NCBI RefSeq assembly: GCF_900114605.1
Contig: NZ_FOTP01000003.1
Span: forward strand, 372,001-436,000
Direction: 5' to 3'
Length of the DNA: 64,000 bases
Source: Bradyrhizobium sp. NFR13
GTDB lineage: Bacteria; Pseudomonadota; Alphaproteobacteria; Rhizobiales; Xanthobacteraceae
Part shown: piece by piece, positions 34,237 to 54,885 of the stretch
How positions within the stretch are numbered: position 1 is the stretch's first letter
How the letters are laid out: each line of letters opens with the position of its first letter
Notes under the pieces: model-generated
The model's input: only the letters and a program-made list of their open reading frames with translations
Told to the model about the DNA's origin: nothing
Databases searched by the model: none
Position numbers and translations under genes: made by a program

Positions 34237-34252
34237 CTTGTCATCCCCGGTT

Positions 34253-37343: not shown

Positions 37344-37347
37344 TCGC

Positions 37348-38058
37348 TCAAACGCCGAGATGGCGCTCCAGCACACCCGGTTGCGCGGCCAATGCCGCGG
37401 GCGTTCCGTCGAATACCACGCAACCCTTCGACAGGATCACCATGCGGTCGGCGACTTTCGCGAGACTCCGAAAATCCTTGTCGACGACGATGGTCGCGAT
37501 GCCCTCGTCCCGAACGATCGCCAGCGTTCGCCAGATCGACTGCGCCACCAGCGGCGCCAAACCTTCGGTGGCCTCATCGATCATGATCATATCGGGATTG
37601 GTCATCAGCGCGCGACCGATGGTGAGCATCTGCTGTTCACCGCCCGACAATTGATGCCCTCCATTATTGCGGCGTTCATGCAGACGCGGAAACAGCTCGA
37701 AGATTTTCGGCAGGGTCCAGGATTGACGCCCGTAATTGTCTGGTCGCGCAGCCATCACCAGATTTTCGGTCACCGACAGCGATCCGAAAATACCTCTGCC
37801 CTCCGGCACCAGCGCCATCCCGCATCGCGCGATCGTTTCGGGCGCTGCATTGCGGATGTCGCGGCCATGGAAGCGCAGATCGCCGCGGCAGAGGGGCATC
37901 AATCCCATCAACGAACGCAGCAGCGTGGTCTTGCCCATGCCATTGCGACCGATCAGCGCCACCTGCTCTCCCGGTGCGAAGGCCAGATCGACGCCATGCA
38001 GAATCTGGCTGGCCCCGTAAAAGGCATCGAGCTTCTCCACCTCGAGCAACGCCGTCAT
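37348..38058 (-). CDS. livF: Branched-chain-amino-acid-type ABC transporter ATPase (LivF)
   Basis: A 236-residue ATPase with Walker A GRNGMGKTTL, signature LSGGEQQMLTIGRAL and Walker B MIMIDEATEGLAP, the LivF-type pattern. Its ATG overlaps the livG stop (ATGA). In this setting the importer probably carries benzoate or a related aromatic acid rather than branched-chain amino acids, as Liv-type systems do in other aromatic gene clusters. Confidence 0.93.
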   Translation of the reverse strand: MTALLEVEKLDAFYGASQILHGVDLAFAPGEQVALIGRNGMGKTTLLRSLMGLMPLCRGDLRFHGRDIRNAAPETIARCGMALVPEGRGIFGSLSVTENLVMAARPDNYGRQSWTLPKIFELFPRLHERRNNGGHQLSGGEQQMLTIGRALMTNPDMIMIDEATEGLAPLVAQSIWRTLAIVRDEGIATIVVDKDFRSLAKVADRMVILSKGCVVFDGTPAALAAQPGVLERHLGV

Positions 38059-38813
38059 GCGATGCCTCCGTCAGCACCGAGATAGGCGGCGCGCACGCCG
38101 GGATCCACGCGCACGTCCTGCGGCAAACCTGTGGCAATGACACGACCGTCCTGCATCACCGTCAACCGATCCGCGAGTTCGAACACAGCGTCCATGTCGT
38201 GTTCCACCACCAACACCGCACGGTCGGCCTTCAAGGAGGCGATCAATCCGATGATACCCCGCGCTTCCGATGGCCCCATGCCGGCCAGCGGCTCGTCGAG
38301 CAAAATGACCCGCGGATTGGTCGCCAGCACCATCGCGATTTCGAGCTGGCGCTGTTCGCCGTGACTCAGTTTATCGGCAATGATCTGCGACCGTGCAGAC
38401 AACCCGACTCGGTCGATCGCATCGGTGACCAATTGGAGATATGGCCGGTCGCATCGCGTGCCGCCAAACATCCGGAGCGGCGTGGTTGAACGAGCCTGCG
38501 CCGCCAGGCGCACATTCTCATACACGCTGAATTGCGCAAACAACGTCGTCTTCTGATAGGCGCGCCCGAGGCCAGCACGCGCGCGGCGGTCCGGCGACAA
38601 CGACGTGATATCCGCACCATTCAGCAGGACCTCACCCGAGGTTGGCAGAAGTTCGCCGGCCAGCAGATTGATCAGTGTGGATTTTCCGGCGCCGTTCGGG
38701 CCGATCACCGCATGGATCTCGCCCGCACGAATGTCGATCGACACATTGGAGACGGCCAGCAAGCCTCCGAAGCGCTTCTGCAATCCAGCGGCACGCAGCG
38801 CAACGTCATGCAT
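38055..38813 (-). CDS. livG: Branched-chain-amino-acid-type ABC transporter ATPase (LivG)
   Basis: A 252-residue ATPase with Walker A GPNGAGKSTL, signature LSHGEQRQLEIAMVLATNP and Walker B VILLDEPLAGMGPSEARG, the LivG-type pattern. It starts inside the last codons of livM and overlaps livF, so the ATPase pair is translationally coupled. The start MHDVALRAAGL gives normal family length. Confidence 0.93.
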   Translation of the reverse strand: MHDVALRAAGLQKRFGGLLAVSNVSIDIRAGEIHAVIGPNGAGKSTLINLLAGELLPTSGEVLLNGADITSLSPDRRARAGLGRAYQKTTLFAQFSVYENVRLAAQARSTTPLRMFGGTRCDRPYLQLVTDAIDRVGLSARSQIIADKLSHGEQRQLEIAMVLATNPRVILLDEPLAGMGPSEARGIIGLIASLKADRAVLVVEHDMDAVFELADRLTVMQDGRVIATGLPQDVRVDPGVRAAYLGADGGIA

Positions 38814-39810
38814 GACGAGCCTCCGCAGCTGCAGGCTTGATCTCGGCCGCGCGTTGCGGCGATGCCCCGAACACCATCGACCAGATCTGCCGGACACCAT
38901 TGGGCAGCAGGATGACGATGCCAATGATGATCAAGCCTTCGACAAGCTTCCAGTTGTCGAGATGCGCCTTCAGCACCTCTTCCATGCCGATCAAAACCAG
39001 CGCACCGACCAGCGGCCCGGTGACCGAGCGCAAACCACCGATCAGCACCATGACAAGGATTGTCGCCGACTGGTGCCATCCCAGCATCTGCGGCGCAACG
39101 AAGCCGAACTGGGCCGCGGCCAGATAACCGGCAAGGCCGGCCAGCGCGCCAGACAGGGTGAATGCCGTCAGGCGAAGACGAAAGATCGGAAAGCCGAGCG
39201 ACCGCGCCCGGCGCTCATTGTCCCGGGCTGCCGCCAGCGCCCGCCCGAAAGGTGAGCGAACCACCATCGTAAGCAGAGCGATCACGCCCACCAGGAAACC
39301 CAGCACGACAAAGTAGAAAGTCATGGTCTTGTCGAGATCGAGCAATTGACGGCCGGCCACGGCGATCTCGGGCCGGATGTTGATGGAGATGCCATCCGAT
39401 CCGCCCGCGAATTTGGTATCGTGGAAGAAGAAGAACAGCATCTCGCCAAAGGCAAGCGTCACCATGATGAAATAGACGCCGCGGGTACGCAGCACCAGCG
39501 CGCCAATCAGCAGGGCCGCGGTGCCGGAGCACAGGATCGCAACCGGAAGCGTCGTTAACAGTGACGCTGCATCATAACGAGGCGACAACAGCGCAAGTAC
39601 GTATCCGGCGAGGCCGAAAAAAGCGGCATGGCAGAGGCTCACCAGGCCGCCATGGCCGACCACGAGATTCAGTGACATGGCGAGCATGCCCATGATGAGC
39701 GCCTTGGCAAAGAATTGCGTGTAATAGGTCGATACATAGAATGGCAGCGCAATCGCTATTGCCAGACAGGCGATGCCGAACAATCGAACCCGCAGATTGG
39801 GCATGCTCAT
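38806..39810 (-). CDS. livM: Branched-chain-amino-acid-type ABC transporter permease (LivM)
   Basis: A 334-residue permease with about eight to ten membrane segments. Family marks are MSLNLVVGHGGLVSLCHAAFFGLAGYVLALL, VLRTRGVYFIMVTLAFGEMLFFF and the loop RALAAARDNERRARSLGFP. It pairs with LivH to form the importer channel. The ATG at 39810 lies one base after the livH stop; two earlier in-frame starts are possible. Confidence 0.93.
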   Translation of the reverse strand: MSMPNLRVRLFGIACLAIAIALPFYVSTYYTQFFAKALIMGMLAMSLNLVVGHGGLVSLCHAAFFGLAGYVLALLSPRYDAASLLTTLPVAILCSGTAALLIGALVLRTRGVYFIMVTLAFGEMLFFFFHDTKFAGGSDGISINIRPEIAVAGRQLLDLDKTMTFYFVVLGFLVGVIALLTMVVRSPFGRALAAARDNERRARSLGFPIFRLRLTAFTLSGALAGLAGYLAAAQFGFVAPQMLGWHQSATILVMVLIGGLRSVTGPLVGALVLIGMEEVLKAHLDNWKLVEGLIIIGIVILLPNGVRQIWSMVFGASPQRAAEIKPAAAEARHA

Positions 39811-39811
39811 A

Positions 39812-40684
39812 TCAAGCATCCTGACGTCCGAGAATTCCACTCGGCCGCCACAGCAACACAACTGCCATCAACACATAAATCAGAATGCTGGACACGCTGG
39901 GAAAGAACACCTTTCCAAACGTATCCGTGAGGCCGATCAGCAGTGCGCCGACGGCTGCGCCACCGACCGAACCGATGCCACCGAGCACGACCACGACAAA
40001 GGACAGAATCAGCATGCCGTCCCCCATGCCGGGAAACACTGTCGAGATCGGCGCGATCAGGATGCCGCCGAGCGCCGCCAGCGCGATGCCGGCAGCGAAG
40101 ACGTAGCGATTGACCCGGTCGAACTTGATGCCGAGCACGCGCGCCATCTCACGATTTTCCGAACCCGCCCGCACGATCATGCCGATTTTGGTGCGCGCGA
40201 TCACGAAGAAGATGGCGAGTGCCGCCATCAGGCAGAACACGCAGATCGCCAGCCGGTAAACCGGATAGGACAGGTTATCGGTCAACTGGATCGATCCCGA
40301 CAACCACGCCGGTGGAGCGACCGCGTGCACGTCCTTGCCGAACAACACCTGCCTGATTTCATCGATGACCAGGATGAGGCCGAAGCTGAGCAGCACCTGT
40401 GCCAGATGATCCCGGCCATAGAGAAGACGAACGAAGACGGTCTCGAGCAAAATACCGACGACAAAGGCAACCAGCACGCCGCCAAGCAGGGCGACGACAA
40501 AACTGCCGGTCATCAACGTGATCCAGTAAGCCAGATAGGCGCCGAGCATATAGAAGGCGCCATGGGCGAGATTGATAACCCCTAGAATGCCGAACACCAG
40601 TGTCAGACCGCTCGCAACAAGGAACAGAACCGCGCCGTACTGAACCGCATTCAGCAACTGAACGCCTAGTGTGATGAAGTCCAT
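39812..40684 (-). CDS. livH: Branched-chain-amino-acid-type ABC transporter permease (LivH)
   Basis: A 290-residue permease: LVASGLTLVFGILGVINLAHGAFYMLGAYLAY near the N-terminus and VRAGSENREMARVLGIKFDRVNRYVFAAGIALAALGG later are hallmark LivH blocks. The start at MDFITLGVQLLNA is preferred because the first membrane helix follows. It is separated from the upstream binding-protein gene by 154 bases with no visible terminator. Confidence 0.93.
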   Translation of the reverse strand: MDFITLGVQLLNAVQYGAVLFLVASGLTLVFGILGVINLAHGAFYMLGAYLAYWITLMTGSFVVALLGGVLVAFVVGILLETVFVRLLYGRDHLAQVLLSFGLILVIDEIRQVLFGKDVHAVAPPAWLSGSIQLTDNLSYPVYRLAICVFCLMAALAIFFVIARTKIGMIVRAGSENREMARVLGIKFDRVNRYVFAAGIALAALGGILIAPISTVFPGMGDGMLILSFVVVVLGGIGSVGGAAVGALLIGLTDTFGKVFFPSVSSILIYVLMAVVLLWRPSGILGRQDA

Positions 40685-40838
40685 CAGATCAATCCAACCA
40701 TGTCGGGCCACATTCGGTCGTCGGCACAGTCAGGCATGAGGCCACGTCTGACTGCGCCGCGGCATCTCCTTCACCGAAGGCGCCACGCGCAACAGGCTTC
40801 GACGACTCGATCTCCGTCGACTGACCGGCAACGATGCT

Positions 40839-42047
40839 TCAGGTCATCTTGCAGCCCCGCGCGGGATCGTCGACATCGGCCTGGGCGACCGAGATCATCT
40901 CGTTCCGCCCGTTGCGAACCTCGCGCAGATAGATGTTCTGGATCGGGTTATGCGCCTTGTTGAAAGACAATGGCCCGCGCGGACTGTCGATCTTCGCAGC
41001 CCCCATCGCCGCAATCATCTTGTCGCGCGCAGTGAAGTCGCCGCCGACGGCCGTCAGCCCGATATCCAGTAGCGCCGCACCATCGTAGCCCTGTACGGCA
41101 TAGATATCGCCGTCCTTGCCTGTCTTGGCCTTGAAGGCCTTGAGGAAAGCGAGATTGGCGGGATTGTCGAGATTGTCCGCGTAATGCAGCGTCGTCCTGA
41201 TGCCCTTGGCGGCTTCGCCCTGCGCTTCGATGGTACCGTCGGTGAGAAAGCCTGCGCCATAAAGCGGAATGGTCTTGTTCAGACCCGCCGCCGCATAGTC
41301 CTTGACGAACTTCACCGCGCCACCGCCAGCAAAGAAGCTGAACACGGCATCGGGCTTTAACTGCGCGATCTGCGTGATCAGTGCCTGAAATTCCACCTCC
41401 GGAAATGGCACCGTCAGGTCCGCGACGATCTTGCCGCCGTTCTTGGTGAAGTTTTCAGCGAAGGCGCCGATCATCTCGGCACCGGCCGTGTAACGCCATG
41501 TGATCGTGACCACGTTCTTGATGCCGGCATCGGCCATTACCTTGCCCATCGGGTAGGTGCTCTGCCAGTTCGAGAACGACGTGCGGAAGATGTTCGGCGC
41601 GCAGGCGGGACCGGTCGCATCATTGGCGCCGGCATTCGGAATGATCAGCAGCGTCTTGGTGTCGCGCGCAACCTTGACCATGGCCATGGCCACGCCGGAA
41701 TGCACGGTGCCGACAACGACATCGGCCTTCTCGCGACCAACCAACCGGTTCATGTTGTCGGTGGCTGCTTCCGGTTTCGATTCATCGTCCACCTGCACGA
41801 ACGCAATGTCGCGCCCGCCGAGCTTGCCGCCCTTCTGTTCGACATAGAGGCGGAAGCCGTCATCGATGAACTGGCCAAGCTTCGCATAGGTGCCGGTGTA
41901 GGGAAGCATCATCCCCACTTTCAATGGCGCGTTCTGCGCGATGGCCGGGCTATGAAGCGGTGACGTCGCAATGAATGTTGCTGCACCGGCGGTTCCGGAG
42001 AGCATGGCGCGGCGCGTCAGCGGACGCAGTAACCCCTTGGTGGTCAT
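40839..42047 (-). CDS. Liv-type ABC transporter substrate-binding protein, likely aromatic acid binding
   Basis: A 402-residue type I periplasmic binding protein. The N-terminus LTRRAMLSGTAGAATFIATSPLHSPAIA is a Tat-like signal with cleavage after AIA. The core PLKVGMMLPYTGTYAKLGQFIDDGFRLYVEQKGGKLGGR and NAGANDATGPACAPNIFRTSFSNWQ resembles binders of benzoate-like compounds more than leucine binders. It is the first gene of the importer operon, preceded at 42181 by a copy of the benzoate-operon palindrome. The ligand is inferred. Confidence 0.9.
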   Translation of the reverse strand: MTTKGLLRPLTRRAMLSGTAGAATFIATSPLHSPAIAQNAPLKVGMMLPYTGTYAKLGQFIDDGFRLYVEQKGGKLGGRDIAFVQVDDESKPEAATDNMNRLVGREKADVVVGTVHSGVAMAMVKVARDTKTLLIIPNAGANDATGPACAPNIFRTSFSNWQSTYPMGKVMADAGIKNVVTITWRYTAGAEMIGAFAENFTKNGGKIVADLTVPFPEVEFQALITQIAQLKPDAVFSFFAGGGAVKFVKDYAAAGLNKTIPLYGAGFLTDGTIEAQGEAAKGIRTTLHYADNLDNPANLAFLKAFKAKTGKDGDIYAVQGYDGAALLDIGLTAVGGDFTARDKMIAAMGAAKIDSPRGPLSFNKAHNPIQNIYLREVRNGRNEMISVAQADVDDPARGCKMT

Positions 42048-42229: not shown

Positions 42230-43450
42230 TCAGTCGCTGTTGACCATCATGGAGGCCGCTGGCGTCGCCGGCGCATAGTTGCGCAAGGCAGCAAGAATGG
42301 ACCGGGCGCCGCGCCGCGCGCCTTCGGTCTGCACCCAGATCAGCGACAGGATAAGTTCAAGCCCGGGATCAACCGGCAGCGCCACGAGGCGTGCATCGAA
42401 TGAGACGAGCGCGCTTTCCGGCAGGACCGAAACGAAGCCGAAATCCAGCATCAGGTTGGCGATGATCGGAATCGAGTCGATTTCCGTGATTGTCAGCGCA
42501 TCGATCTCCGGCTGAGGCAGCAATTGCGCGAGCAGTCTGTGGGCGGCCTGCCCGAGGCCGGTACGTCGGCTGGGTAGCGCAAGCGGTTGCTGCCGAAGCA
42601 CCCGCGTAACATCAGGCTGGTCACCGAGCACTTCGCGCGCACCGACGACCACAAGCTTCGAACGCACCAAGGCACGCGACGACACATCGGCAGGGATCGT
42701 ATCGCTGTCGATCAGCGCCACATCGCAGCGCTTGTCCTTCAGACCGGTGAGCAGATCCTCTGCCGTGCCATTGGTGACAAATAGCGGCTGCGTCGGCCGA
42801 TCCCGTTGCCAGGCAGCGACTAGAAAGGCCAGCAGCCGCGCGACATTGCTTTCATGACCGAGCGGCATCACCGCCCCCAGCCTGATGGTGGCATTGGTCG
42901 AACGGAAACGTTCGCGCGCACGCCGCGACAGTCGCTGCATGGTTTTTTCAAGTTCACCGAGCGATGCGATCAGCAACTGGCAGGACGTCGTCGGCGTGAC
43001 GCCGAGCCGCGAACGATCGAACAGCACGCGGCCGAGCTCGTCTTCCACCCGCGCAATCTGCCGCGCGAGCTGCGGCTGACCGAGGCGAATGATCCGCGCT
43101 GCGCGCCGTACACTGCCGGTCTCGGCCACCAGCGCAACACGTTGCAGGGCCGTGAGGCTGATGTCGCGTGAGGCGCAAAACGTAAGCGCAGCATCCGCGG
43201 CCAGACGCGGCGCGATCATCGCGCGCGCGATATCAGATGCTGCTTCGATGTCATTCAGCATGCGCCGCGCTTCAAGCGTAAGAAAGCTTGCCGCGCCCGC
43301 CCGGTTCAGCAGTGGCGCAGCAATGGAGCGCTCGAACCGTTTCACCGCCGCCGAGATCGTGCTGGGCGCCCGGTTCAGCTGGCGCGCGGCTTCACGCACA
43401 TTGCCGCAGCGAAGCACCGCCGCCGTCATCACCAGAGTTGCGATGTCCAT
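42230..43450 (-). CDS. LysR-type regulator with two tandem N-terminal HTH domains
   Basis: A 406-residue regulator with an unusual layout. Residues about 3-53 form one LysR HTH (IATLVMTAAVLRCGNVREAARQLNRAPSTISAAVKRFE), residues about 98-150 a second (LTALQRVALVAETGSVRRAARIIRLGQPQLARQIARVEDELG), followed by a LysR substrate-binding domain (about 188-406). Ordinary LysR proteins have one HTH and about 300 residues. It is divergent from the polar-amino-acid importer operon and probably controls it. An in-frame start at 43516 is possible, but 43450 puts the HTH at the usual distance. Confidence 0.88.
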   Translation of the reverse strand: MDIATLVMTAAVLRCGNVREAARQLNRAPSTISAAVKRFERSIAAPLLNRAGAASFLTLEARRMLNDIEAASDIARAMIAPRLAADAALTFCASRDISLTALQRVALVAETGSVRRAARIIRLGQPQLARQIARVEDELGRVLFDRSRLGVTPTTSCQLLIASLGELEKTMQRLSRRARERFRSTNATIRLGAVMPLGHESNVARLLAFLVAAWQRDRPTQPLFVTNGTAEDLLTGLKDKRCDVALIDSDTIPADVSSRALVRSKLVVVGAREVLGDQPDVTRVLRQQPLALPSRRTGLGQAAHRLLAQLLPQPEIDALTITEIDSIPIIANLMLDFGFVSVLPESALVSFDARLVALPVDPGLELILSLIWVQTEGARRGARSILAALRNYAPATPAASMMVNSD

Positions 43451-43518
43451 TCCATTATTGTCCGGGTCTGTAGTCGAATTTTTCTGCGCTGCAGCGAGAG
43501 CGTATAGGTTGTCCATCA

Positions 43519-43537
43519 AATGGGATATCCCCCCATT
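43519..43537. promoter_or_regulatory. Inverted repeat in the LysR / ABC importer divergent promoter
   Basis: AATGGG and CCCATT are perfect 6-bp arms separated by 7 bases, about midway between the divergent starts at 43450 and 43618. A second small dyad, ATTGCACAAT, overlaps its right arm (43535-43544). Location and symmetry fit a LysR-family operator; this is inference. Confidence 0.45.
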
Positions 43538-43617
43538 GCACAATTGCGCTAGCCTTCGTGACAGGGACCGCGGAGCCAGATGCCGGCTTGGCCTGGCCGC
43601 GCCAATGGAGGTGTTCG

Positions 43618-44451
43618 ATGAAAGCAATGATCGTTGCCGCCGGGCTTCTGGCTTTGGCCAGCCCCGCATTCGCGCAGTCGCAGGAACCGCTGAAGTCTGC
43701 GATCGACTCAACCTTCGCACCGCATGCGATGCCCAAACTGTCGGGCGGCCTCGAAGGCTTCAATATCGACGTCGTCGATGAGATGTCGAAGCGCATCAAG
43801 CGCCCTATCACGGTGGAAGGCGCGCAATTCGCCGGCCTCCTTCCGGCGCTTCAGGCCGGCACCTACGACTTCCTCGCCGCTGTGGTCACTGTCACGCCCG
43901 AGCGCGCGCAGCAGTTGTTGTTCATGGAAGGCTTCGTCGACGCCGACTATCGCTTCATGACGCTTGCCTCGGCGCCGCCGATCACCAAGCTCGAAGATCT
44001 CTCCGGCAAGACCATCGCCGTACAGAAGGGCGCGATCTACGAGAAATGGGTCAACGACAATGCCGCCAAATATGGCTGGAAGTCGGAATCCTTCGCCACC
44101 AGCACCGACGCGGCACAAGCCGTGCTCGCCGGCCGTGCCGACGCCAACATCTCGGCTGCCACCGTCGTCGCCTGGATCGTGAAGAACAATCCGCGGCTGA
44201 AGAATGCCTATCTCTACAAGACGGGCCTCGTCTGGAGCATGCCGCTCCGCAACGGCAATACTGAATTGCGCAACAAGCTCGAAGACGCGCTGGTCTGCAT
44301 GAAGCAGGACGGCACGCTGAAGAAACTCTACGTGAAGTGGTTCGGTGTCGAGCCGGAGGCCGGTTCGGCAACCACCACAATCTATCCGGGCTACGGCGCA
44401 CCGGGCGTCGCCGGCTATGACGCGACAGAGCAGAAGCCGACCTGTTCATGA
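43618..44451 (+). CDS. Polar amino acid-type ABC transporter substrate-binding protein
   Basis: A 277-residue SBP_bac_3 protein with signal peptide [21 protein letters not shown] and [37 protein letters not shown] and [19 protein letters not shown] as family blocks. It binds a polar amino acid or similar zwitterion in the periplasm. GGAGG precedes the ATG. It opens the operon containing the hydantoinase-like, DUF917 and urocanase-like enzymes, so its ligand is probably their substrate. Confidence 0.92.
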
Positions 44452-45224
44452 GTTCGGCAGCGGCAGCGCCCGAGTCCTTTTCGCCCATGTCGCGTTATCT
44501 GCTGGAAGCGCGCGGCGTCCGGAAGCGCTTCGGCTCCACCGAAGTCCTGAAGGGTGTCGATCTTTTGGTCGAGCCGGGCAAGCTGGTCTTTCTGATCGGC
44601 CCATCCGGTTCGGGCAAGAGTACCTTGCTGCGCTGCTGCAATCGTCTGGAGGAGCCGGATGGCGGCTCCATCATCATGGACAATGTCGATCTCCTGTCGC
44701 CGCGCACCGATATCAATGCGGCACGGCGGCAGATCGGCATGGTGTTCCAGAGCTTCAACCTCTATCCGCACCTCACGGTGCAGAAAAACATCACACTGGC
44801 CCTGCGCAAGGTCGCCGGTATGAGCACCGCCGACGCCAATGCCCGTGCCGCGGAAATGCTGGCGCTGGTCGGCCTGCCCGACAAGGCGGCCGCCTATCCC
44901 ACGCAACTCTCCGGCGGCCAGCAGCAGCGCATCGGCATTGCGCGCTCGCTCGCGCTGAACCCGAAGATCATCCTGATGGACGAACCGACTTCGGCGCTCG
45001 ACCCGGAACTGGTCGGCAGCGTGCTCGCCGTCGTGAAGGACCTGCGCGACCGCGGCATCACCATGGTCATCGCCAGCCACGAGATGAATTTCGCCCGTGA
45101 AGCCGCCGATCAGGTCGTTTTCCTCGATGGCGGACTCGTCATCGAGCAAGGCAGCGCCGAAGACATTTTCCTGCGTCCGCAGGAAGAACGTACCAAACGT
45201 TTTCTCGCGCAGATCAGGCACTAG
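44448..45224 (+). CDS. Polar amino acid ABC transporter ATP-binding protein
   Basis: A 258-residue ATPase of the GlnQ/HisP type: Walker [35 protein letters not shown], signature [15 protein letters not shown], Walker [18 protein letters not shown] and the switch [14 protein letters not shown]. The ATG overlaps the stop of the binding-protein gene (ATGA). It energises uptake with the two permeases that follow. Confidence 0.95.
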
Positions 45225-45227
45225 GCC

Positions 45228-45929
45228 ATGACCGCCGCCGACGCGATGAGCAACTGGGACCGCTTCGTCTTCACCTTCTTCAACGCGGATATCGCGATGA
45301 AGTATGGCTGGGAGATCCTGCAGGGCGCCGGCGTTACCATTCTTGCCGGCCTCGCCGTGGTTATCACCGGCATCGGCGCCGGATTCGGCCTCGCGGCGCT
45401 CCGGGCGATCGGCTGGAAGCCCATCAACTTCTTCATCATCGTGTTCGTCGATATCTTCCGCTCGCTGCCGCCGCTGGCGATCATCCTGGTCCTGTTCTTC
45501 GGATTTCCCAGTATCGGCATCGTGCTGCCCAGCCTGGTCGTGCTGTGGATGTCGCTAGGTGCCGTGCTCGCCGCCTTCGCGGAGGAGATTTTCTGGGCCG
45601 GCATCACCTCGGTACCCAAGGGCCAATGGCTGGCCGCGCGCTCCACGGGCCTCACTTTCGCGCAGACCTTGCGCTACGTAATCCTGCCGCAGGCCGTTCG
45701 CCTTGGCATCCCGCCGCTGACCAACCGCGCCATCTCCATCACCAAGAATCTCGCGCTCGGCAGTGCCATCGGCGTCAACGAGATTCTCGGCCGCGCCAAT
45801 TCGGCGTTGTCGATGTCTGCCAATGCGACACCGCTCACCATGGGCGCCCTGCTCTATGTGCTGGTGTTTATCCCGCTGGTGATCGCCTCCCGCACGCTCG
45901 AACGCAACTATCGGTGGGGTGAGCACTGA
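45228..45929 (+). CDS. Polar amino acid ABC transporter permease 1
   Basis: A 233-residue permease. GWEILQGAGVTILAGLAVVITGIGAGFGLAALR, DIFRSLPPLAIILVLFFGFP and the EAA loop GQWLAARSTGLTFAQTLRYVILPQAVR are typical of the His/Glu/Gln/Arg/opine permease family. It starts three bases after the ATPase stop and overlaps the next permease by one base. Confidence 0.94.
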   Translation: MTAADAMSNWDRFVFTFFNADIAMKYGWEILQGAGVTILAGLAVVITGIGAGFGLAALRAIGWKPINFFIIVFVDIFRSLPPLAIILVLFFGFPSIGIVLPSLVVLWMSLGAVLAAFAEEIFWAGITSVPKGQWLAARSTGLTFAQTLRYVILPQAVRLGIPPLTNRAISITKNLALGSAIGVNEILGRANSALSMSANATPLTMGALLYVLVFIPLVIASRTLERNYRWGEH

Positions 45930-46588
45930 TGGAGCAGTTCACACAGGAATTCTTCAATCTCGACGTCATGACGAAGGTCGCACCGTTCCTGCTGCAGGGA
46001 CTGCTGCAGACGCTGCTGTTGTGTTCGTTCCTGATCCCGATCGGCCTCGTCAGCGGCATCCTCGTAATGCTGCTCACCACCAGCCCCTATCGCCTGTTGC
46101 GCTGGCCGGCGATCGTCGCCGTCGATTTCTTCCGCGCCTTTCCGCCGCTGGTGCTGCTGGTCTTTGTTTATGCGGGCCTGCCCTTTATCGGACTGCGCGT
46201 GCCCGCGCTGGTGGCCGTGGCCGTCGCCTTCCTGATCAATTCGGCAAGTTACTACGGCGAGATCTACCGCGCCGGCATGGTCAGCGTGCCCAAGGGCCAG
46301 CGCGAGGCCGCGCGGTCGACCGGCCTCTCCGCGACGCAGACATTGCTTTACGTGACGCTGCCGCAGGCGATCCGCAACGTTCTGCCCGATCTGCTCTCAA
46401 ACACGGTCGAATTGGTGAAGCTCACGACGCTGGCCAGCGTCATCTCGGTGCCGGAGCTGCTGCATTCCGCCAATCTGGCGCGCTCGCTCACCTACAACTC
46501 ATCGCCGCTAATCCTCGCGGCGATCATCTATCTGCTCCTGCTGTTGCCGGTCGTGCGGCTGATCGCGCGGCTGGAACACAGACTCTAG
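45929..46588 (+). CDS. Polar amino acid ABC transporter permease 2
   Basis: A 219-residue permease with FLLQGLLQTLLLCSFLIPIGLVSGILVMLL, DFFRAFPPLVLLVFVYAGLP and the EAA loop GQREAARSTGLSATQTLLYVTLPQAIRNVLPDLLSNTVELVKLTTLAS. It is paired with the previous gene to form a heterodimeric channel. Its start overlaps the stop of permease 1 (TGATG). Confidence 0.94.
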   Translation: MEQFTQEFFNLDVMTKVAPFLLQGLLQTLLLCSFLIPIGLVSGILVMLLTTSPYRLLRWPAIVAVDFFRAFPPLVLLVFVYAGLPFIGLRVPALVAVAVAFLINSASYYGEIYRAGMVSVPKGQREAARSTGLSATQTLLYVTLPQAIRNVLPDLLSNTVELVKLTTLASVISVPELLHSANLARSLTYNSSPLILAAIIYLLLLLPVVRLIARLEHRL

Positions 46589-46595
46589 GACATAC

Positions 46596-46609
46596 GGTCC
46601 CGCGGGACC
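46596..46609. promoter_or_regulatory. GC-rich palindrome between transporter and enzyme genes
   Basis: GGTCCCGCGGGACC is a perfect 14-bp palindrome eight bases after the permease stop and 44 bases before the amidohydrolase start. It has no T-run after it. It may form a short RNA hairpin that separates transporter and enzyme expression. Confidence 0.35.
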
Positions 46610-46652
46610 ATCACGACAAGCCGGCTCGCCGGCGGCGAATGTGGAGTTGCCC

Positions 46653-48032
46653 ATGGATTTCGATCTGGTTCTCACCGGCAAGGTGATCGGTCACGACAGC
46701 ATCATCGAGAATGGCTGGGTCGCGGTCCGAGACGGGCGCGTGGGCGCGGTCGGCGAAGGCACGCCGCCTGCCGCGCGCGAGCGGAAGGATTTCAAGTCCG
46801 GCATGATCCTGCCGGGCGCCATCGACGCGCAGGTGCACTCGCTGTCGCAGCGCAATCAGGAAGATTTCATCTGGTCGACGCGCTCCGCCGCAGCCGGCGG
46901 TGTAACCACCATCGTCGACATGCCCTATGATGAAGGCGATCTAGTCTGTTCCGCTGCCGCCGTCGAGCGCAAGATCGCCCATGCGAGCAAACAGGCGCGC
47001 GTGGATTTCGCGCTCTATGGTACCATTGATCCCCAGGAAGGCCCGGCACGTATCGCCGAACAAGCGAAGGCTGGCGTCGCGGCCTTCAAGTTCTCCACCT
47101 TCGGCACTGATCCAAAGCGCTTTCCACGCATCCCTGCGCCGCTGCTCGCCGATTGCTTCGCCGCCATTGCGCCGACCGGCCTCGCCGCCGGTGTCCACAA
47201 TGAGGACGACGAATTCATCCGCGACGCCGTCGCCAAGGTGAAGGCAAAAGGCATCACCGACTGGCGCGCGCATGCCATGTCGCGCCCGCCGCTCGCTGAA
47301 ATCCTGGCGATGCTGCAGATCTATGAGACCGGCGCCGAGACCGGTTGTCCCGCCCATGTGGTGCATTGTTCTGTCGCGCGCGGTTACGACATTGCAGCCT
47401 GGTATCGCTCCGAGGGTCATCACGCCACGGTGGAATGTTGCATCCACTATCTCGTGCTCGACGAGGAGAACGACGTCTCTCGATTGGGCGGTAAGGCCAA
47501 GATCAATCCGCCGGTGCGCCCGCGTGCCGATGTCGAGGCGCTCTGGGCAGAGCTTGCAGCCGGACGCGTCTCGCTGGTCTCCACCGATCACGTCAGTTGG
47601 TCGGAGGATCGCAAGGTCAATCCGGACATGCTCGCCAACGCGTCCGGCATCCCGGGCCTGGAGGCCATGGTGCCGCTGCTGGTGAAGGGTCTCGTCGAAC
47701 GCAAACTGCCGCTGACCCATGCCGCGAAGCTGATGTCGTTCAATCCGGCGCGGCACTTCCGCATCGACGATCGCAAGGGCGCGCTTGCGCCCGGCCTCGA
47801 CGCCGACATCACCGTGCTGGTGGACAAGCCCGTCGTCTACGATGCCGCAGCGAGCGGCAACAATGTGGTCGGCTGGTCGCCCTATAACGGCATCACGCTG
47901 CCATGGACCGTGGCCGCGACCTATGTGCGCGGCAAGCTCGCATTCGATGGCAGCAAGGTTCTCGGCGAGCCCGGCAGCGGGCAATTCGTGCGACCGCCGC
48001 TGCTTCTCTCGGAGCGACTGCCGGTGGCGTAA
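46653..48032 (+). CDS. Hydantoinase/dihydropyrimidinase/allantoinase-type amidohydrolase
   Basis: A 459-residue cyclic amidohydrolase. PGAIDAQVHS (55-63) is the metal motif, where the family has HxH; here the first histidine is Gln60 and only His62 remains. The other ligands are in place: carboxylatable Lys146 (AAFKFS), His182 (GVHNED), His238 (HVVHCS) and Asp312 (STDHVS). AGGVTTIVDMP and KAKINPPVRP fit the family. It probably opens a hydantoin or imidazolone ring. The metal centre may be mononuclear. Start at MDFDLVLTGK. Confidence 0.88.
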   Translation: MDFDLVLTGKVIGHDSIIENGWVAVRDGRVGAVGEGTPPAARERKDFKSGMILPGAIDAQVHSLSQRNQEDFIWSTRSAAAGGVTTIVDMPYDEGDLVCSAAAVERKIAHASKQARVDFALYGTIDPQEGPARIAEQAKAGVAAFKFSTFGTDPKRFPRIPAPLLADCFAAIAPTGLAAGVHNEDDEFIRDAVAKVKAKGITDWRAHAMSRPPLAEILAMLQIYETGAETGCPAHVVHCSVARGYDIAAWYRSEGHHATVECCIHYLVLDEENDVSRLGGKAKINPPVRPRADVEALWAELAAGRVSLVSTDHVSWSEDRKVNPDMLANASGIPGLEAMVPLLVKGLVERKLPLTHAAKLMSFNPARHFRIDDRKGALAPGLDADITVLVDKPVVYDAAASGNNVVGWSPYNGITLPWTVAATYVRGKLAFDGSKVLGEPGSGQFVRPPLLLSERLPVA

Positions 48033-48096
48033 CGCCCGCCGTTCCGATCACCGAACACGTATCGAACACAAGAACATCTGCCGAGGAGACATTCCG

Positions 48097-49185
48097 ATGG
48101 GACGTATTCTGACCGAACGCGATATTGAAGCCGCCGTGCGCGGCGGCGGTGTCTACGCTGCCGGCGGTGGTGGCTGGGCGGATCACGGGCGCATGCTCGG
48201 CCGCGCCGCCATTCTTGTCGGCAAGCCCGAACTCGTGTCGATCGACGAACTCGATGATGACGACTGGGTGGCCACGGCCGCTGCCATCGGCGCACCGGCA
48301 TCGACCACCGCCTGGGAGATGCAGGGCAAGGATTACGTTCGTGCGGTGCAACTGTTGCAGGACGCACTTGGCGAACCGGTAAAGGGCCTCATCATCGGCC
48401 AGAACGGCAAGTCGTCCACCATGAATGCGTGGCTGCCATCGGCATTGCTCGGCACCAAGGTGGTCGATGCCGTGGGCGATATGCGCGCGCATCCGACCGG
48501 CGACATGGGATCGATCGGCCTCGCCGGTTCCCCCGAGCCGATGATCCAGACCGCGGCCGGCGGCAACCGCGCCGAGAACCGCTACATCGAACTCACCGTA
48601 CGCGGTGCCACCGCCAAGGTGTCACCGATCCTGCGCACGGCCGGCGACATGTCCGGCGGCTTCATCGCCTCCTGCCGCAATCCGGTCCGCGCCTCCTATG
48701 TACGCGATAACGCTGCGCTCGGCGGCATCTCCTTGGCGCTGCGCCTCGGCGAAGCCATTCTCGCTGCCGAACCTAAAGGTCCGTCTGCCGTGATCGATGC
48801 GATCTGCAAGGATACCGGCGGCTCCATCCTCGGCAGCGGCAAGATCACTGCGAAGAACGTGGTCTATACACCGGAGGCCTTCGATATCGGCACGCTCACC
48901 GTCGGCAGCGGCGACAAGGCCATCACACTGCATGTGATGAACGAGTATATGGCCATCGTCGATGCAACTGGTAAGCGCCTCGCGACCTTCCCGGACATCA
49001 TCGCCACGCTGTCTAACGACGCCGAGCCGATGAGCGTCGGCCATCTCGAAGTCGGCATGAACGTGCATCTGTTCCACGTGCCGAAGACGATCATTCCGCT
49101 CGCCTCCAGCGTCAAGGACCCGGCGGTCTATCCGTCCGTCGAGCGCGCCATGGGCATCGAGATCGCGCGCTACGCACTGGCCTGA
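48097..49185 (+). CDS. DUF917 family protein, possible thiohydantoin desulfurase
   Basis: A 362-residue DUF917 protein. The N-terminus LTERDIEAAVRGGGVYAAGGGGWADHGRM has the family's glycine-rich loop, followed by GKPELVSIDELDDDDWVATAAAIGAPAS and DMRAHPTGDMGSIGLAGSP. I recall that this family has been tied to S-methyl thiohydantoin desulfurase activity in ergothioneine-related degradation, and its neighbours here fit that. DUF917 is also found beside hydantoinases in general, so the activity is a hypothesis. GAGGAGAC precedes the ATG. Confidence 0.85.
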   Translation: MGRILTERDIEAAVRGGGVYAAGGGGWADHGRMLGRAAILVGKPELVSIDELDDDDWVATAAAIGAPASTTAWEMQGKDYVRAVQLLQDALGEPVKGLIIGQNGKSSTMNAWLPSALLGTKVVDAVGDMRAHPTGDMGSIGLAGSPEPMIQTAAGGNRAENRYIELTVRGATAKVSPILRTAGDMSGGFIASCRNPVRASYVRDNAALGGISLALRLGEAILAAEPKGPSAVIDAICKDTGGSILGSGKITAKNVVYTPEAFDIGTLTVGSGDKAITLHVMNEYMAIVDATGKRLATFPDIIATLSNDAEPMSVGHLEVGMNVHLFHVPKTIIPLASSVKDPAVYPSVERAMGIEIARYALA

Positions 49186-49207
49186 GGCATTACGACAGGA
49201 CCCCGCC

Positions 49208-50866
49208 ATGACATCAGCGAATCCACGGCATCCCGACTTTCCCATTCCCGGTGGCCCGCAATTGCGCGCCAAGGGCTGGCGGCAGGAAGGTCTGTTGCGG
49301 CTGCTGGAAAATGTGCTGGCGGTCGGTGAGGATCCGTCGAGCCTCGTCGTCTATGCGGCGCTGGGTCGCGCCGCCCGCAACTGGCCGGCGCACAAGGCGA
49401 TCGTGCAAGCGCTGACAACGATGGAAGAAGACCAGACGCTGGTTATCCAGTCCGGCAAGCCGGTCGGACTGCTCCGCACCCACGCCAAGGCGCCGCTGGT
49501 GATCATGGCGAATTGCAACATTGTCGGGCAATGGGCGAAGGCCGAGATCTTCTATGAGCTAGAACGCAAGGGCCTGATCTGCTGGGGCGGTCTCACCGCC
49601 GGCGCCTGGCAGTATATCGGCTCCCAGGGCGTCATCCAGGGAACCTATGAGATCTTCATGCGCATCGCCGAGCGCCGTTTTGGCGGCACGCTCGCCGGGC
49701 GCTTCATCCTCACCGCCGGGCTCGGCGGCATGGGCGGCTCGCAGCCGCTCGCCGGACGCATGGCCGGCGCGGCGATCCTCACCATCGACGTCGATCCGGA
49801 GCGCGCGCGCAAGCGCAAGGAAATCGGTTATCTCGAAGTGATCGCCCCCGATCTTGATTCAGCGCTGGAGATGATCGCTACTGCGAAGGCCGAGCGTCGC
49901 GCGTTGTCTGTCGGCCTCGTCGGCAACGCCGCCGATATCTATCCGGAAATCGCCCGGCGCGGCGTCATCCCCGATGTCGTCACTGATCAGACCGCAGCCC
50001 ACGATCTGGTTTATGGCTACGTGCCCCGCACGCGCTCGCTCGACGAGGCACGCGCCATGCGCAAGACGGCGCCGGAACAATTGATGGTGGAGAGCCGCGC
50101 GTCGATTGTCGATCATGTCCGCGCCATGCTGACCTTCCAGGCGCGCGGCGCAGAAGTATTCGATAACGGCAATCTGATCCGCACGCACGCGAGAGACGGC
50201 GGGGTTGTCAACGCCTTCGATATCCCGATCTTCACGGAAGCCTATCTGCGCCCGCTATTTGCACGCGCCATTGGTCCGTTCCGCTGGATGGCACTGTCGG
50301 GCGATCCCGACGATATCCGTGCCATCGACGATCTCGTGCTGCGCCTGTTCGGCGACAACCAAATCGTCTCGAACTGGATCAAGCTCGCGCGTCAATACGT
50401 GCCTTTCGAAGGCTTGCCGGCACGCATCGCCTGGCTCGGTCATGGCGAGCGCAGCGAACTGGCGCTGGGCGTGAATGAACTCGTCGCCAATGGCACGCTC
50501 AAGGGACCGGTCGCCTTCTCGCGCGATCATCTCGACGCCGCCGGCATGGCACATCCGAACATCATGACCGAGAACATGCGCGACGGCTCCGATGCCATCG
50601 CCGACTGGCCGCTGCTCGACGCGATGGCGTTGTGTTCATCCCAGGCTGATCTCGTCGCCATTCATTCCGGCGGCGGCGGCTATGCCGGCTACATGACCAG
50701 CGCCGGGGTCACCCTGATCGCCGACGGCACGGCCACCGCGGCGGAGCGTCTCGCCATGAGCCTCGACAACGACACGGGCCTCGGCGTCATCCGCTACGCG
50801 GATGCCGGGTATGCCGAGGCCATCGACGAGGTCTCGCTGAAGCACGTTCCGCATATACAACTCTAA
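49208..50866 (+). CDS. Urocanase (urocanate hydratase) paralogue with altered active site
   Basis: A 552-residue protein colinear with urocanase: GWRQEGLLRLLENVL, VVYAALGRAARNWPAH, QSGKPVGLLRTH, the NAD loop GLGGMGGSQPLAGRMA (171-186) and VTDQTAAHD. Residues that I remember as constant in true urocanases differ: FDYGNNIRQ is FDNGNLIRT (318-326), the Cys of FCxGxGPFRW is Ala352, NRETE is NIMTE (451-455), and HHGGG(V)GxGYSxH is HSGGGGYAGYMTS (486-498). The NAD-dependent hydration is probably kept on a substrate other than urocanate. No other hut gene is present. Confidence 0.9.
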   Translation: MTSANPRHPDFPIPGGPQLRAKGWRQEGLLRLLENVLAVGEDPSSLVVYAALGRAARNWPAHKAIVQALTTMEEDQTLVIQSGKPVGLLRTHAKAPLVIMANCNIVGQWAKAEIFYELERKGLICWGGLTAGAWQYIGSQGVIQGTYEIFMRIAERRFGGTLAGRFILTAGLGGMGGSQPLAGRMAGAAILTIDVDPERARKRKEIGYLEVIAPDLDSALEMIATAKAERRALSVGLVGNAADIYPEIARRGVIPDVVTDQTAAHDLVYGYVPRTRSLDEARAMRKTAPEQLMVESRASIVDHVRAMLTFQARGAEVFDNGNLIRTHARDGGVVNAFDIPIFTEAYLRPLFARAIGPFRWMALSGDPDDIRAIDDLVLRLFGDNQIVSNWIKLARQYVPFEGLPARIAWLGHGERSELALGVNELVANGTLKGPVAFSRDHLDAAGMAHPNIMTENMRDGSDAIADWPLLDAMALCSSQADLVAIHSGGGGYAGYMTSAGVTLIADGTATAAERLAMSLDNDTGLGVIRYADAGYAEAIDEVSLKHVPHIQL

Positions 50867-51983: not shown

Positions 51984-53297
51984 TCAGTTGAGGCCACCGG
52001 AACGTGCGTGTTCCTGGTCGGCGAGTTCGAGCCCGTGATCCAGCGCTTCGAGCAATCGCTCGGCGTCCGCTTCACTGATGATCAGCGGCGGCGCCAGGAA
52101 CAACGAGGTCTGCTCGCCGCTGGTACCGATCACGGCGCCGGCCTCCATCGCCCGTGCGGCGACCCGTGAGGCGATCGGGTTTTCGACCGTGTCCGCCGCC
52201 CAGTTGCGCCAGTCCGGCCCGTGCAGTTCGACTGTCCAGTGAAGACCCTGTCCCGCGACGCGGCTGACGCTCGGATGATTGCGCGCGATCTCAAGCAGGC
52301 GCTTCTTGAAATACGCTTCCATCGTGCGCACCCGCGCCAGGATATCCTCTTCGGTCACCACTTTTAGATAGGCGCTGATCGCCGCCATGCTGATCGGGTG
52401 GCCGCGCAGCGTGCCGTAGTTCTGCCAGCTCGCTCCCTTGAGTTGCTCGACAATCTTCTTCGACACCACGACGGCAGCCACTGCCGCAGCGCCGCCACCG
52501 AGCGACTTGCCCATGGTGACGATGTCAGGACGGCTCGATGCGCCCTGGAAGGCGAACCAGCGCCCGGCGCGACCCGCACCGGTGACGACTTCGTCGGCGA
52601 TCCAGATCGACTTGGCAGCGGCCGCATGGCGCGCCACCTCGTCCTGATATTCGCCATCGTAATAGTTGCCGCCCTGGGTGTAGTCGATGATGGTCGCGGC
52701 CGTATCTGCGAGTGTCGTGCCGGCATCAGCAAGGCGCTCCACCGTCGGGCGATTGTCGGGTAACCCACCATAGATCGCCCCGTCAGGTGCAGGCAGGATC
52801 TTCACCGGTGCCATCGGAGCTGGCAGACGTGAACCGCCGGCCTGGACCGCGAGGCCACCATGCCAGTGCGGCTGCACCGTCATGCTGCGCGACAGGCCGA
52901 CGAGGCCGTGATAAGCGCGCTCGCGCGTCGCCAGCGCGGATTTCTGCGACAGCGCCTGGCAGAGCGACAGCGCCATGTCGTTGGCCTCAGAGCCGCTAAT
53001 ACAGAAACGCACGCCGCCGACCCAATCTTCCTCGCCGGCGAAAGCCGTGCTCATGAGATCGTCGGCAGCCTTCTCGCGACCGATCCAGGTCCAGCCTTCA
53101 TTGACCACCGGCGTATCCGCCGCGGCACGAATGGCTTCCACCATTTTCGGGTGACGATGGCCGAGGCCGCCGCCAGTATTACTGCCGTCGATCAGCTTGC
53201 GGCCGTCCTGCAGGTGGAAATAGACGCCTTCGCCGCCGACGACGGTCAAGGGGGCACTGTCGCCGGCATTAAGGCCGGTTCGCAAAAGTCTGCTCAT
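51984..53297 (-). CDS. Class III (omega) PLP-dependent aminotransferase
   Basis: A 437-residue fold-type I aminotransferase of class III. ISGSEANDMAL binds the cofactor phosphate, YHGLVGLSRS is a typical block, IADEVVTGAGRAG holds Asp235, and TMGKSLGGG places the Schiff-base lysine at Lys264. It removes an amino group from an omega-amino acid, a D-amino acid or a similar compound, or acts as an aminomutase. It begins 13 bases after the hyuB stop, so it shares the hydantoinase operon. Confidence 0.92.
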   Translation of the reverse strand: MSRLLRTGLNAGDSAPLTVVGGEGVYFHLQDGRKLIDGSNTGGGLGHRHPKMVEAIRAAADTPVVNEGWTWIGREKAADDLMSTAFAGEEDWVGGVRFCISGSEANDMALSLCQALSQKSALATRERAYHGLVGLSRSMTVQPHWHGGLAVQAGGSRLPAPMAPVKILPAPDGAIYGGLPDNRPTVERLADAGTTLADTAATIIDYTQGGNYYDGEYQDEVARHAAAAKSIWIADEVVTGAGRAGRWFAFQGASSRPDIVTMGKSLGGGAAAVAAVVVSKKIVEQLKGASWQNYGTLRGHPISMAAISAYLKVVTEEDILARVRTMEAYFKKRLLEIARNHPSVSRVAGQGLHWTVELHGPDWRNWAADTVENPIASRVAARAMEAGAVIGTSGEQTSLFLAPPLIISEADAERLLEALDHGLELADQEHARSGGLN

Positions 53298-53310
53298 CGC
53301 TCGTCTTTCT

Positions 53311-54885
53311 TTAAACTTCCGGGCCAAAGCCGCCGCCGCCGCACATTTCGATGGTCACGAGATCGTCCTGCTGCAGCACGAGGTTCGACTTGCCGTCGAT
53401 CTCCGTGGTCTCGCCGCCGCGCGAGAGCGTCAGGCGCGCCGTCTTGCCGGGCAAGCCCCCATGCAGGCCGAATGGCGCAATGACCTTGCGTTCGACGCTG
53501 CTGGTGAGATGCATGCTCGGCGCGAGCACGCGATAGCTGCGCACGACGCCGTCGCCGCCGTGATATTTGCCGCCACCGCCCGAGCCCCAGCGGATCGCCT
53601 GCTTTTCGACAAGGATGTTGTAATTGGCCTCGATCATCTCGGCCGGCGTGTTCGATGTGTTGGTGAGATGCACGCGGGTTGCAGAACAACCGATACGGTT
53701 GTGGCGGGCGCCCTCGCCGCCGGCATGGACTTCGTAGAGCATCTTCCACGAGCCATCGGCGCGCGGCTCGGCGAAGGAGATCATGCCGGACGTGGTGGCG
53801 CCGCCCGACGACAGCCGCTCCGGGATGACGTCCTTCATGGCGAGGAAAATCGCATCGACGATGCGCAGTGATGTCTCGTGATTGCCCGCCGCGACCGGCG
53901 CGGTGAGACCGGGATCGAGGATCGATCCGGGCCGGGTGATGATATTGAGGGGGCGTAGCGCACCACCGTTCTGCTGCATCTCACGGCCGCTCATGATGCG
54001 GGCGGAATAGGCCACCGCGGAGCGCGCGATGAACAACGTCGTGTTGCAGAAGTTCGAGACGCGATCGCAACTGCCGGACAGATCGAAGGTCGCCTCGTCG
54101 CCCTTGATGATGATCTTGACATGAATACGCGCCGGCTCGTCGCCGGGGCCGCCGTCGTCCATGAAGTCTTCGCCCTCATAGACGCCATCGGGCAATGCCA
54201 GAATAGCCTCGCGCATTTCGGCTTCGGAGAGATCATGCAGGCGCGACAGTGTCGCCACGAACATATCTCTGCCGTGCACCTTGCACAGCTCGATGATGCG
54301 CTTCTCGCCGGCCAGCGTGCAGGCGATCTGGCCGAGCAGGTCGCCCTCGCAGGATTCGGGATCTCGCACATTGGCCTTGAGGAACTGGACCACGGCATCG
54401 CTGATCCCCGCCGCGGTGGCGACGCGGATCGGCGGGATGCGCAGCGCTTCCTGGAATGTATCGATCGCCTTGGCGTAATAGCTGCCGGGCCAGAAACCGC
54501 CGATATCCGGCCAATGCGCGAGACTGACGGCGAAAGCAACGATCTCGCCTTCGAAGAACACCGGGCGTACAACCTTGACGTCGTTGAGATGATTGCCGCC
54601 GAGTTCGGCGACATTGTAGATCAGCACGTCGCCTTCCTTCAGCGTCGACGCAGGCACGCGCTTCAGCGTCTCGCTGACCGTATAGGCCATGGCGCCGAGA
54701 TGAACCGGGATGTCACGCCCCTGGCCGACCAGTTCGCCCTGCGCATCGGTGATCGCCGACGACAGATCGCCGGCCTCGCGCAGCAGCGGCGAGCGCGCCG
54801 AGCGAGTCATCACCAGGCTCATCTCTTCAGCCGCTGCCGACAGGCCATGGCGGATCACTTCGACGGCAAACGGATCGAGTTTCAT
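53311..54885 (-). CDS. Hydantoinase B / N-methylhydantoinase B-type subunit (HyuB)
   Basis: A 524-residue HyuB-family protein: PFAVEVIRHGLSAAAEEMSLVMTRSARSPLLREAGDLSSAI at the start, HLGAMAYTV, GDVLIYN, and the late GCSATRVHLTNTSNTPAEMIEANYNI with the glycine-rich GSGGGGKYHGGDGVVRSYR. With HyuA it forms an ATP-dependent enzyme; relatives open hydantoins or 5-oxoproline, or carboxylate ketones. The start overlaps the hyuA stop by four bases. Confidence 0.92.
   Translation of the reverse strand: MKLDPFAVEVIRHGLSAAAEEMSLVMTRSARSPLLREAGDLSSAITDAQGELVGQGRDIPVHLGAMAYTVSETLKRVPASTLKEGDVLIYNVAELGGNHLNDVKVVRPVFFEGEIVAFAVSLAHWPDIGGFWPGSYYAKAIDTFQEALRIPPIRVATAAGISDAVVQFLKANVRDPESCEGDLLGQIACTLAGEKRIIELCKVHGRDMFVATLSRLHDLSEAEMREAILALPDGVYEGEDFMDDGGPGDEPARIHVKIIIKGDEATFDLSGSCDRVSNFCNTTLFIARSAVAYSARIMSGREMQQNGGALRPLNIITRPGSILDPGLTAPVAAGNHETSLRIVDAIFLAMKDVIPERLSSGGATTSGMISFAEPRADGSWKMLYEVHAGGEGARHNRIGCSATRVHLTNTSNTPAEMIEANYNILVEKQAIRWGSGGGGKYHGGDGVVRSYRVLAPSMHLTSSVERKVIAPFGLHGGLPGKTARLTLSRGGETTEIDGKSNLVLQQDDLVTIEMCGGGGFGPEV

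Follow-up and report, generated by a model that had tools for sequence, protein, structure and literature searches.

A gene cluster of Bradyrhizobium sp. NFR13 that probably represents a thiourocanate-entry form of the lower Ert pathway with its own importer

Introduction

Degradation of the antioxidant ergothioneine begins with its conversion to thiourocanate. The Ert pathway and its lower enzymes are already known and already represented by NCBI models. According to a passage in one review, thiourocanate is degradable to glutamate, with Alcaligenes extracts cited as the source (PMC7653990). Two reports cited in a passage of PMC13405746, one in which a gut bacterium with ergothionase supplies thiourocanate that sustains Bacteroides xylanisolvens, the other concerning a thiourocanate desulfhydrase, show that cross-feeding on this compound occurs in other settings. 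The subject of this work is a gene cluster at positions 42230–50866 of a 64,000-nucleotide stretch (hereafter the window) of the genome of Bradyrhizobium sp. NFR13, a soil bacterium akin to Tardiphaga. Its enzymes very likely act in the thiourocanate series, and the cluster as a whole probably encodes the lower part of the Ert pathway, with thiourocanate as its entry point, and serves to scavenge an imported compound.

Results

The window corresponds to positions 372001–436000 of contig C8 (NZ_FOTP01000003.1) in a genome of 6.2 Mb; the nearest named matches to its hydratase, at 96%, come from Tardiphaga robiniae Vaf-07 and Tardiphaga sp. P9-11. The arrangement described in an earlier note made from the sequence alone was borne out, with a LysR-type regulator divergent from seven plus-strand genes:

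42230–43450, minus strand: LysR-type regulator with two HTH_1 domains and one substrate domain (Pfam HTH_1, two stretches, and LysR_substrate)
43618–44451, plus strand: periplasmic binding protein, SBP_bac_3 family (Pfam SBP_bac_3, 2.9e-27)
44448–45224, plus strand: ABC transporter ATPase (Pfam ABC_tran, 2.1e-36 for 44490–45224)
45228–45929, plus strand: ABC permease (Pfam BPD_transp_1)
45929–46588, plus strand: ABC permease (Pfam BPD_transp_1)
46653–48032, plus strand: predicted hydantoin-5-propionate amidohydrolase, ErtD type (NCBIfam NF058538; on the side of the lyase-type clusters in its tree)
48097–49185, plus strand: predicted thiohydantoin desulfurase, DUF917 / S-Me-THD family (NCBIfam NF058529)
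49208–50866, plus strand: predicted thiourocanate hydratase, urocanase family (NCBIfam NF058530; match to 7ned; tree)

Every frame is open across the cluster. The ATPase start at 44448 was picked from the ATGA overlap of its ATG with the stop of the binding protein gene. Because no gap between the plus-strand genes exceeds 64 bp, the seven genes likely form one operon. The same note had reported no hutH, hutI, hutF or hutG nearby, and no hut gene was identified by eye among the called genes between 31110 and 63674. Related loci from Rhizobium, Ensifer, Devosia, and others (80 in total) were fetched with the urocanase-like protein, and their gene content was counted by tblastn because simple gene calls are rough in GC-rich DNA. 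The amidohydrolase, DUF917, and urocanase-family genes occur together in 77 of the 80, the amidohydrolase being undetected in L047, L078, and L120; co-occurrence at this frequency is beyond chance.

The equivalog models for the Ert pathway in NCBIfam release 20.0 were applied with their curated cut-offs. The 49208 product passed the thiourocanate hydratase model NF058530 (1025.8 bits, cut-off 930) and fell below the S-methylthiourocanate hydratase model NF058531 (746.8 bits, cut-off 880). It also scored 676.8 bits against TIGR01228 (hutU; cut-off 375), a model that is broad, since it is also passed by the proteins of both the thiourocanate and the S-methyl type that were tested from other genomes. 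A Foldseek search with an AlphaFold2 model (mean pLDDT 90) returned 7ned first (64% identity, TM 0.95), with the Variovorax S-methyl enzyme (53% identity) and bacterial HutU structures (47–49%) at lower ranks. A tree of 38 rows was built from the window protein, three PDB chains, and 34 of 109 collected urocanase-family rows, which include repeat copies of one gene from overlapping loci; the HutU rows L183 and L186, both truncated, were left out, and HutU rows were distinguished from the others by motif and tree. Three groups were marked: HutU (4 rows, with 1x87), the 8q9v group (7 rows), and a group of 27 rows holding 7ned and the window protein (100/99). Ile452 of the window protein occupies the position of R450 in the S-methyl enzyme, of which an R450A variant has been crystallized (8q9u); 7ned likewise has Ile, and the aligned HutU residue is Arg. 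Across the 109 rows, this site is Arg in 12 HutU- or S-methyl-type rows and Ile, within HP[ND]IMTE, in the other 97.

Two alternative identities for the 49208 product were rejected. HutU is ruled out by the tree, the motif, and a separate hut operon on contig C6, in which hutC, hutF, hutI, and hutD were named by eye; the HutU encoded there reaches 965.2 bits against the TIGR01228 cut-off of 375 and is the only other urocanase above the Pfam cut-off in the genome. An S-methylthiourocanate hydratase is ruled out by the missed NF058531 cut-off and the position outside the 8q9v clade. The view of this gene as a urocanase paralogue distinct from true HutU, which a phylogenetic position inside HutU would have contradicted, therefore holds: the HutU rows form their own clade with 1x87, and tree and motif both set the window hydratase apart from it.

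The 48097 product passed the thiohydantoin desulfurase model NF058529 (593.2 bits, cut-off 440) and fell below the S-methyl thiohydantoin desulfurase model NF058532 (276.5 bits, cut-off 450); a fold search with the DUF917 model gave the uncharacterized 2o3i as its sole significant entry. The 46653 product passed the ErtD model NF058538 (778.7 bits, cut-off 600), and its tree placed it on the side of the lyase-type clusters. Hydantoinase-like amidohydrolases have HxH as their first metal-binding motif. At residues 60–62 of the 46653–48032 product, QxH (in DAQVH) replaces it, as it does in 95 of 104 related rows, the remaining nine being unmatched by the motif pattern. With equivalog models passed by all three enzymes, the order hydratase, desulfurase, hydantoinase on a thio-imidazole that the earlier note had proposed is supported. 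Its (S-methyl)ergothioneine substrate survives as the ergothioneine-type branch through plain thiourocanate and fails as the S-methyl branch, where both cut-offs were missed.

The genome was searched for the two enzymes that the earlier note had counted as missing from the segment, the initial lyase and the final N-carbamoyl-glutamate hydrolase; a candidate for the latter was found, and an ergothionase-like lyase was not. The putative hydrolase is an unlinked M20 gene on contig C2 (L201:9864–11144), close to apparent cobalamin genes (by eye), whose product passes the ErtE model NF058540 (564.6 bits, cut-off 520). Family member G565 encodes an M20 within its cluster that shares 69% identity with this product; the two group together with the M20 of G568 (100/100) in a tree where the L165 row begins inside the gene and two other M20 rows from the same genome lie on very long branches. 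Because this M20 passes the ErtE model, the lower route looks complete, with candidates encoded for the whole way from thiourocanate to glutamate.

The lyase searches used two probes, the PF00221 profile and one Rhizobium lyase, and neither recovered an ergothionase-like protein from the genome. The single PF00221 protein is a 4-methylideneimidazole-5-one (MIO)-type histidine ammonia-lyase (HAL) on contig C6 (C6:1605077, L004) with an intact MIO triad, and it is also the only match to the Rhizobium query (27% identity); thus, no MIO-less, HAL-fold trimethylamine lyase was detected with these probes. The idea that an ammonia-lyase-like enzyme encoded elsewhere acts on an imported betaine accordingly found no support. 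This HAL gene and hutU share a contig at a distance of ~765 kb, and the HAL gene adjoins a FliI-like flagellar ATPase gene (by eye). DUF917 at ≥69% identity is present in 12 of 198 genomes of the family (Nitrobacteraceae; NFR13 included), and none of the 12 gave a lyase match above 125 bits or 30%. The best lyase matches among the 198 genomes, G467 (176 bits) and G548 (131 bits), are both MIO-less and come from genomes without a close cluster, so the statement that the lyase is lacking applies to the Rhizobium type and to cluster-bearing genomes. Ten other genomes of the same genus among the 198 comprise four with a window-type cluster (97–98%), one with the Asp type described below (G538), and five without a close match.

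The comparison of gene neighborhoods proposed in the earlier note proved informative. Among the 80 related loci, DUF917 is present in 80, the amidohydrolase in 77, M20 in 77, and a lyase (≥59% identity) in 75; the lyase is upstream of the hydratase in 74 of these loci, and L093 alone has it downstream. The five loci lacking the gene are L055 and L078, whose genomes hold a full lyase elsewhere (90% and 75%, respectively), L089, with a partial one, and L041 and L042, both from Tardiphaga, where the lyase query matches only HAL (26–27%). The cluster lyase is HAL-like, and its best solved relative is the ergothionase 6s7j (169 bits, versus ≤139 for HAL structures). Cluster lyases read SIGCADI (or SMGCADI) where HAL has the MIO-forming SVGASGDL; the most distant row, L129 (36%), was unmatched by the pattern for this site. 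No NCBIfam model names the cluster lyase, and the four lyases scanned reach only HAL-type models, far below their cut-offs. Outside the family, seven of eight genomes with DUF917 at ≥73% have the lyase beside the cluster, and G086 has an MIO-type HAL instead.

The trees bear on how the window cluster came to lack this gene. The window hydratase and two Tardiphaga relatives fall inside the group formed by lyase-type clusters (16 rows, 98/94, themselves part of an 18-row group, 99/99), and because the window enzymes branch inside a lyase-bearing clade, the lyase appears to have been lost or left behind. The hydratases of lyase-less G538, G565, G454, G388, G401, and G568 group separately with MIO-linked G483 (7 rows, 91/88). 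Placement of G086 beside the G483 group lacks support in the hydratase tree, but G086 joins that group in the DUF917 tree. All eight have Asp at hydratase position 133, whereas the other 89 rows of the 7ned-type group have Ala (the window protein among them) or, in L126, Cys. The DUF917 tree (25 chosen rows) and the amidohydrolase tree (21 rows) give the same split (100/99 and 100/100); as neither has an outgroup, they show the split and not the nesting. Read from the sequences, the window cluster most likely arose from a lyase-bearing cluster through transfer or gene loss, independently of the Asp-type clusters.

The best solved relatives of the window binding protein are mostly amino-acid binders (Lys/Arg/Orn-, Gln-, and His-binder-like). 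Against the EhuB (ectoine binder) model it scored 40.9 bits, far under the cut-off of 190.9. Copies 98.6% identical were found only in Tardiphaga loci (L041, L042, and L158) among the loci searched. Importers vary among the clusters: besides family 3, an OsmF-like betaine-type importer is present in 7 of the 80 loci (a Devosia example passes NF049931 with 484.6 bits, cut-off 400), and Liv-like, TRAP-like, and Ssu-like systems were recognized by eye. The two-HTH LysR likely regulates the divergent operon. Regulators with two HTH_1 domains stand beside several cluster types. Those of the window (42230–43450) and of the lyase-type loci L094 (2957–4246) and L093 (12427–13686) have 406–429 residues, with both HTH_1 domains in the first half; those of the Asp-type and S-methyl-type loci L159 (16419–18260), L160 (17893–19716), L161 (4266–6107), and L165 (1234–3084) have 607–616 residues, with the second HTH_1 at about residue 310–370.

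Several sister clusters carry other partner genes. MIO-type HAL relatives occur with thiourocanate hydratase and desulfurase genes at L127:8089–9699 (G086), directly adjoining the cluster enzymes, and at L162:2593–4206 (G483), ~3 kb away behind transporter genes. Both pass the HAL subfamily cut-off and miss the hutH equivalog cut-off, and it is possible that they are thiohistidine ammonia-lyases; a title search of the open literature found no paper on a thiohistidine-to-thiourocanate step. Five tandem HAL/PAL-like genes (three matched to HAL by tblastn, two named by eye) follow an S-methyl-type hydratase and DUF917 at L128:11081–18459 (G086). A UbiD decarboxylase gene is next to the hydratase in the lyase-less loci L160 (6507–7868), L161 (6101–7465), and L175 (631–1749), between the desulfurase and M20 in L162 (10201–11601), and some kilobases from the cluster in L164 (2143–3708) and L165 (3280–4683). 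Pfam confirmed the assignments in L160, L161, L162, and L164; those in L175 and L165 were made by eye. We know of no decarboxylation step in the established Ert route. The sister-cluster proteins tested from L160, L127, L159, and L163 pass the thiourocanate-pathway equivalog cut-offs. In Rhizobium wenxiniae, a second, distant MIO-less lyase (32%, GSIGAGDL; L203:2331–11125) follows genes for two luciferase-like monooxygenases and a QAT-type importer (by eye), and these genes perhaps belong to an ergothioneine sulfonate route cited in a passage of PMC13405746.

The genes flanking the cluster were considered as further members and set aside. Upstream, the genes at 31110–42047 appear by eye to encode box ring-cleavage enzymes and a ligase, a regulator resembling BoxR, and an ABC importer of the Liv type. 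The Liv-type genes (37348–42047) adjoin these apparent benzoyl-CoA (box) pathway genes and were rejected as part of the cluster; a role for their binding protein in uptake is unlikely, though it is kept beside the cluster in L041, L042, and L158. Downstream, the minus strand of 51984–58525 encodes HyuB and a class III aminotransferase (both by Pfam) together with two products recognized by eye, one HyuA-like and the other resembling family-5 binding proteins. In L041 and L042 the cluster is not followed by the aminotransferase and HyuB/HyuA genes (51984–56882; by eye), which were therefore excluded; the region forms a module of its own, seen at the corresponding position in neither locus.

Discussion

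From family membership and gene content, we infer the activities of all these proteins, the imported compound, and the scavenging lifestyle. The ABC importer would bring in thiourocanate or a close relative, the proposed ligand of the binding protein. The 49208 product would hydrate thiourocanate to thiohydantoin propionate, the 48097 product would remove the sulfur to give hydantoin-5-propionate, and ErtD (46653) would open the ring to yield N-carbamoyl-glutamate, from which the unlinked C2 M20 hydrolase would release glutamate; the two-HTH LysR probably senses a pathway intermediate. With no trimethylamine-releasing lyase recovered from the genome, the compound would be expected to have lost its amino group before uptake. 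The simplest reading is that the cell takes up thiourocanate shed by ergothionase-bearing neighbors, since the lower route looks complete, no lyase was found, and the importer is confined to Tardiphaga among the loci searched.

Some considerations pull the other way. The genome has EgtD beside an EgtB-like gene (the latter recognized by eye), so the organism probably makes ergothioneine itself and the lower pathway could serve internal turnover. A betaine or a free amino acid would suit the amino-acid-type binding protein no less well than thiourocanate. Very distant lyase relatives could be missed by the probes used, and a lyase of another fold is possible. Complete ergothioneine catabolism, in which the betaine is imported and an unrelated or very distant trimethylamine lyase elsewhere makes thiourocanate, would draw on the branching of the hydratase inside the clade with ergothionase-like lyases, on the OsmF-like importers beside some clusters, and on the inclusion of an ectoine binder (EhuB model) among family-3 binders. 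We regard it as unlikely, because the searches recovered an ergothionase-like protein neither from this genome nor from four other genomes of the genus with the same cluster, and the only PF00221 protein in NFR13 is the MIO-type HAL.

That HAL would itself make thiourocanate if a free amino acid such as 2-thiohistidine were imported, an entry in keeping with a polar amino acid importer and with the MIO-type HAL relatives at the same enzymes in two other genomes (L127, L162). The C6 lyase is unlinked, however, and is needed for histidine, as it is the only HutH candidate found for the C6 hut operon; moreover, the linked HALs accompany Asp133 hydratases and the window hydratase has Ala, which makes this entry quite unlikely. 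Re-purposing of the enzymes for another 2-substituted urocanate or imidazole acid could account for the differing importers and for UbiD in several sister clusters (L160, L161, L175, L162), a step absent from the known pathway, yet the window proteins and the sister proteins tested all pass thiourocanate equivalog cut-offs, and we consider it improbable. S-methyl-ergothioneine catabolism is highly improbable: the DUF917 Pfam family is named after S-Me-THD, but both S-methyl equivalog cut-offs are missed, the hydratase lies outside the 8q9v clade, and it lacks the Arg mutated in 8q9u. Beyond the window, and more tentatively than for thiourocanate scavenging by this cluster, part of the Nitrobacteraceae (the 12 of 198 genomes) may constitute a guild of thiourocanate scavengers with varied importers and no close lyase, alongside a 2-thiohistidine entry in MIO-linked G483 and G086.

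As far as our searches reach, the new elements are a cluster form that lacks the lyase and has an importer of its own, the occurrence of this form across one family, and the association of sister clusters with MIO-type lyases and with UbiD. Judged by titles and the beginnings of abstracts, the open-access literature yielded no description of these clusters; the main enzyme papers are in subscription journals, and the statement is confined to the open-access set. The search for ergothioneine breakdown described in a passage of PMC13405746 started from the first enzyme, and surveys of that design would miss a cluster without the lyase. If the lower half of the pathway moves between genomes and functions by itself, genomes without ergothionase join in, thiourocanate is a common resource of soil and rhizosphere, and surveys that rely on the lyase underestimate how much ergothioneine is turned over. 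The sister clusters linked to MIO lyases or UbiD point toward further entry substrates.

Comparison with Known Systems

The S-methylthiourocanate hydratase of Variovorax sp. RA8 (8q9v) and the desulfurase model NF058532 represent the same two families and a parallel chemistry, but they differ from the window by a separate clade, 53% identity, and unmet cut-offs. Ergothionase 6s7j, whose source we take to be Treponema denticola, resembles the Rhizobium lyase in lacking the MIO triad (SIGEGDI and SIGCADI, versus SVGASGDL in HAL) and has no counterpart found in the window genome. The Ert enzymes described in NCBIfam are matched through NF058529, NF058538, and, unlinked, NF058540; compared with them, this genome is without a detected first-step lyase, has ErtE outside the cluster, and uses an SBP_bac_3 importer. 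Thiourocanate hydratase 7ned of Paenibacillus sp. Soil724D2 shares the clade of the window hydratase, the HPNIMTE signature, and 64% of its residues, but it forms a long basal branch of the 27-row group. The Rhizobium, Ensifer, and Devosia clusters differ in carrying their own ergothionase-like lyase and M20 gene; among them, Rhizobium johnstonii 3841 (L080) is like the window in its amidohydrolase (73%), DUF917 protein (77%), and urocanase-family hydratase (78%), which are encoded in the same order.

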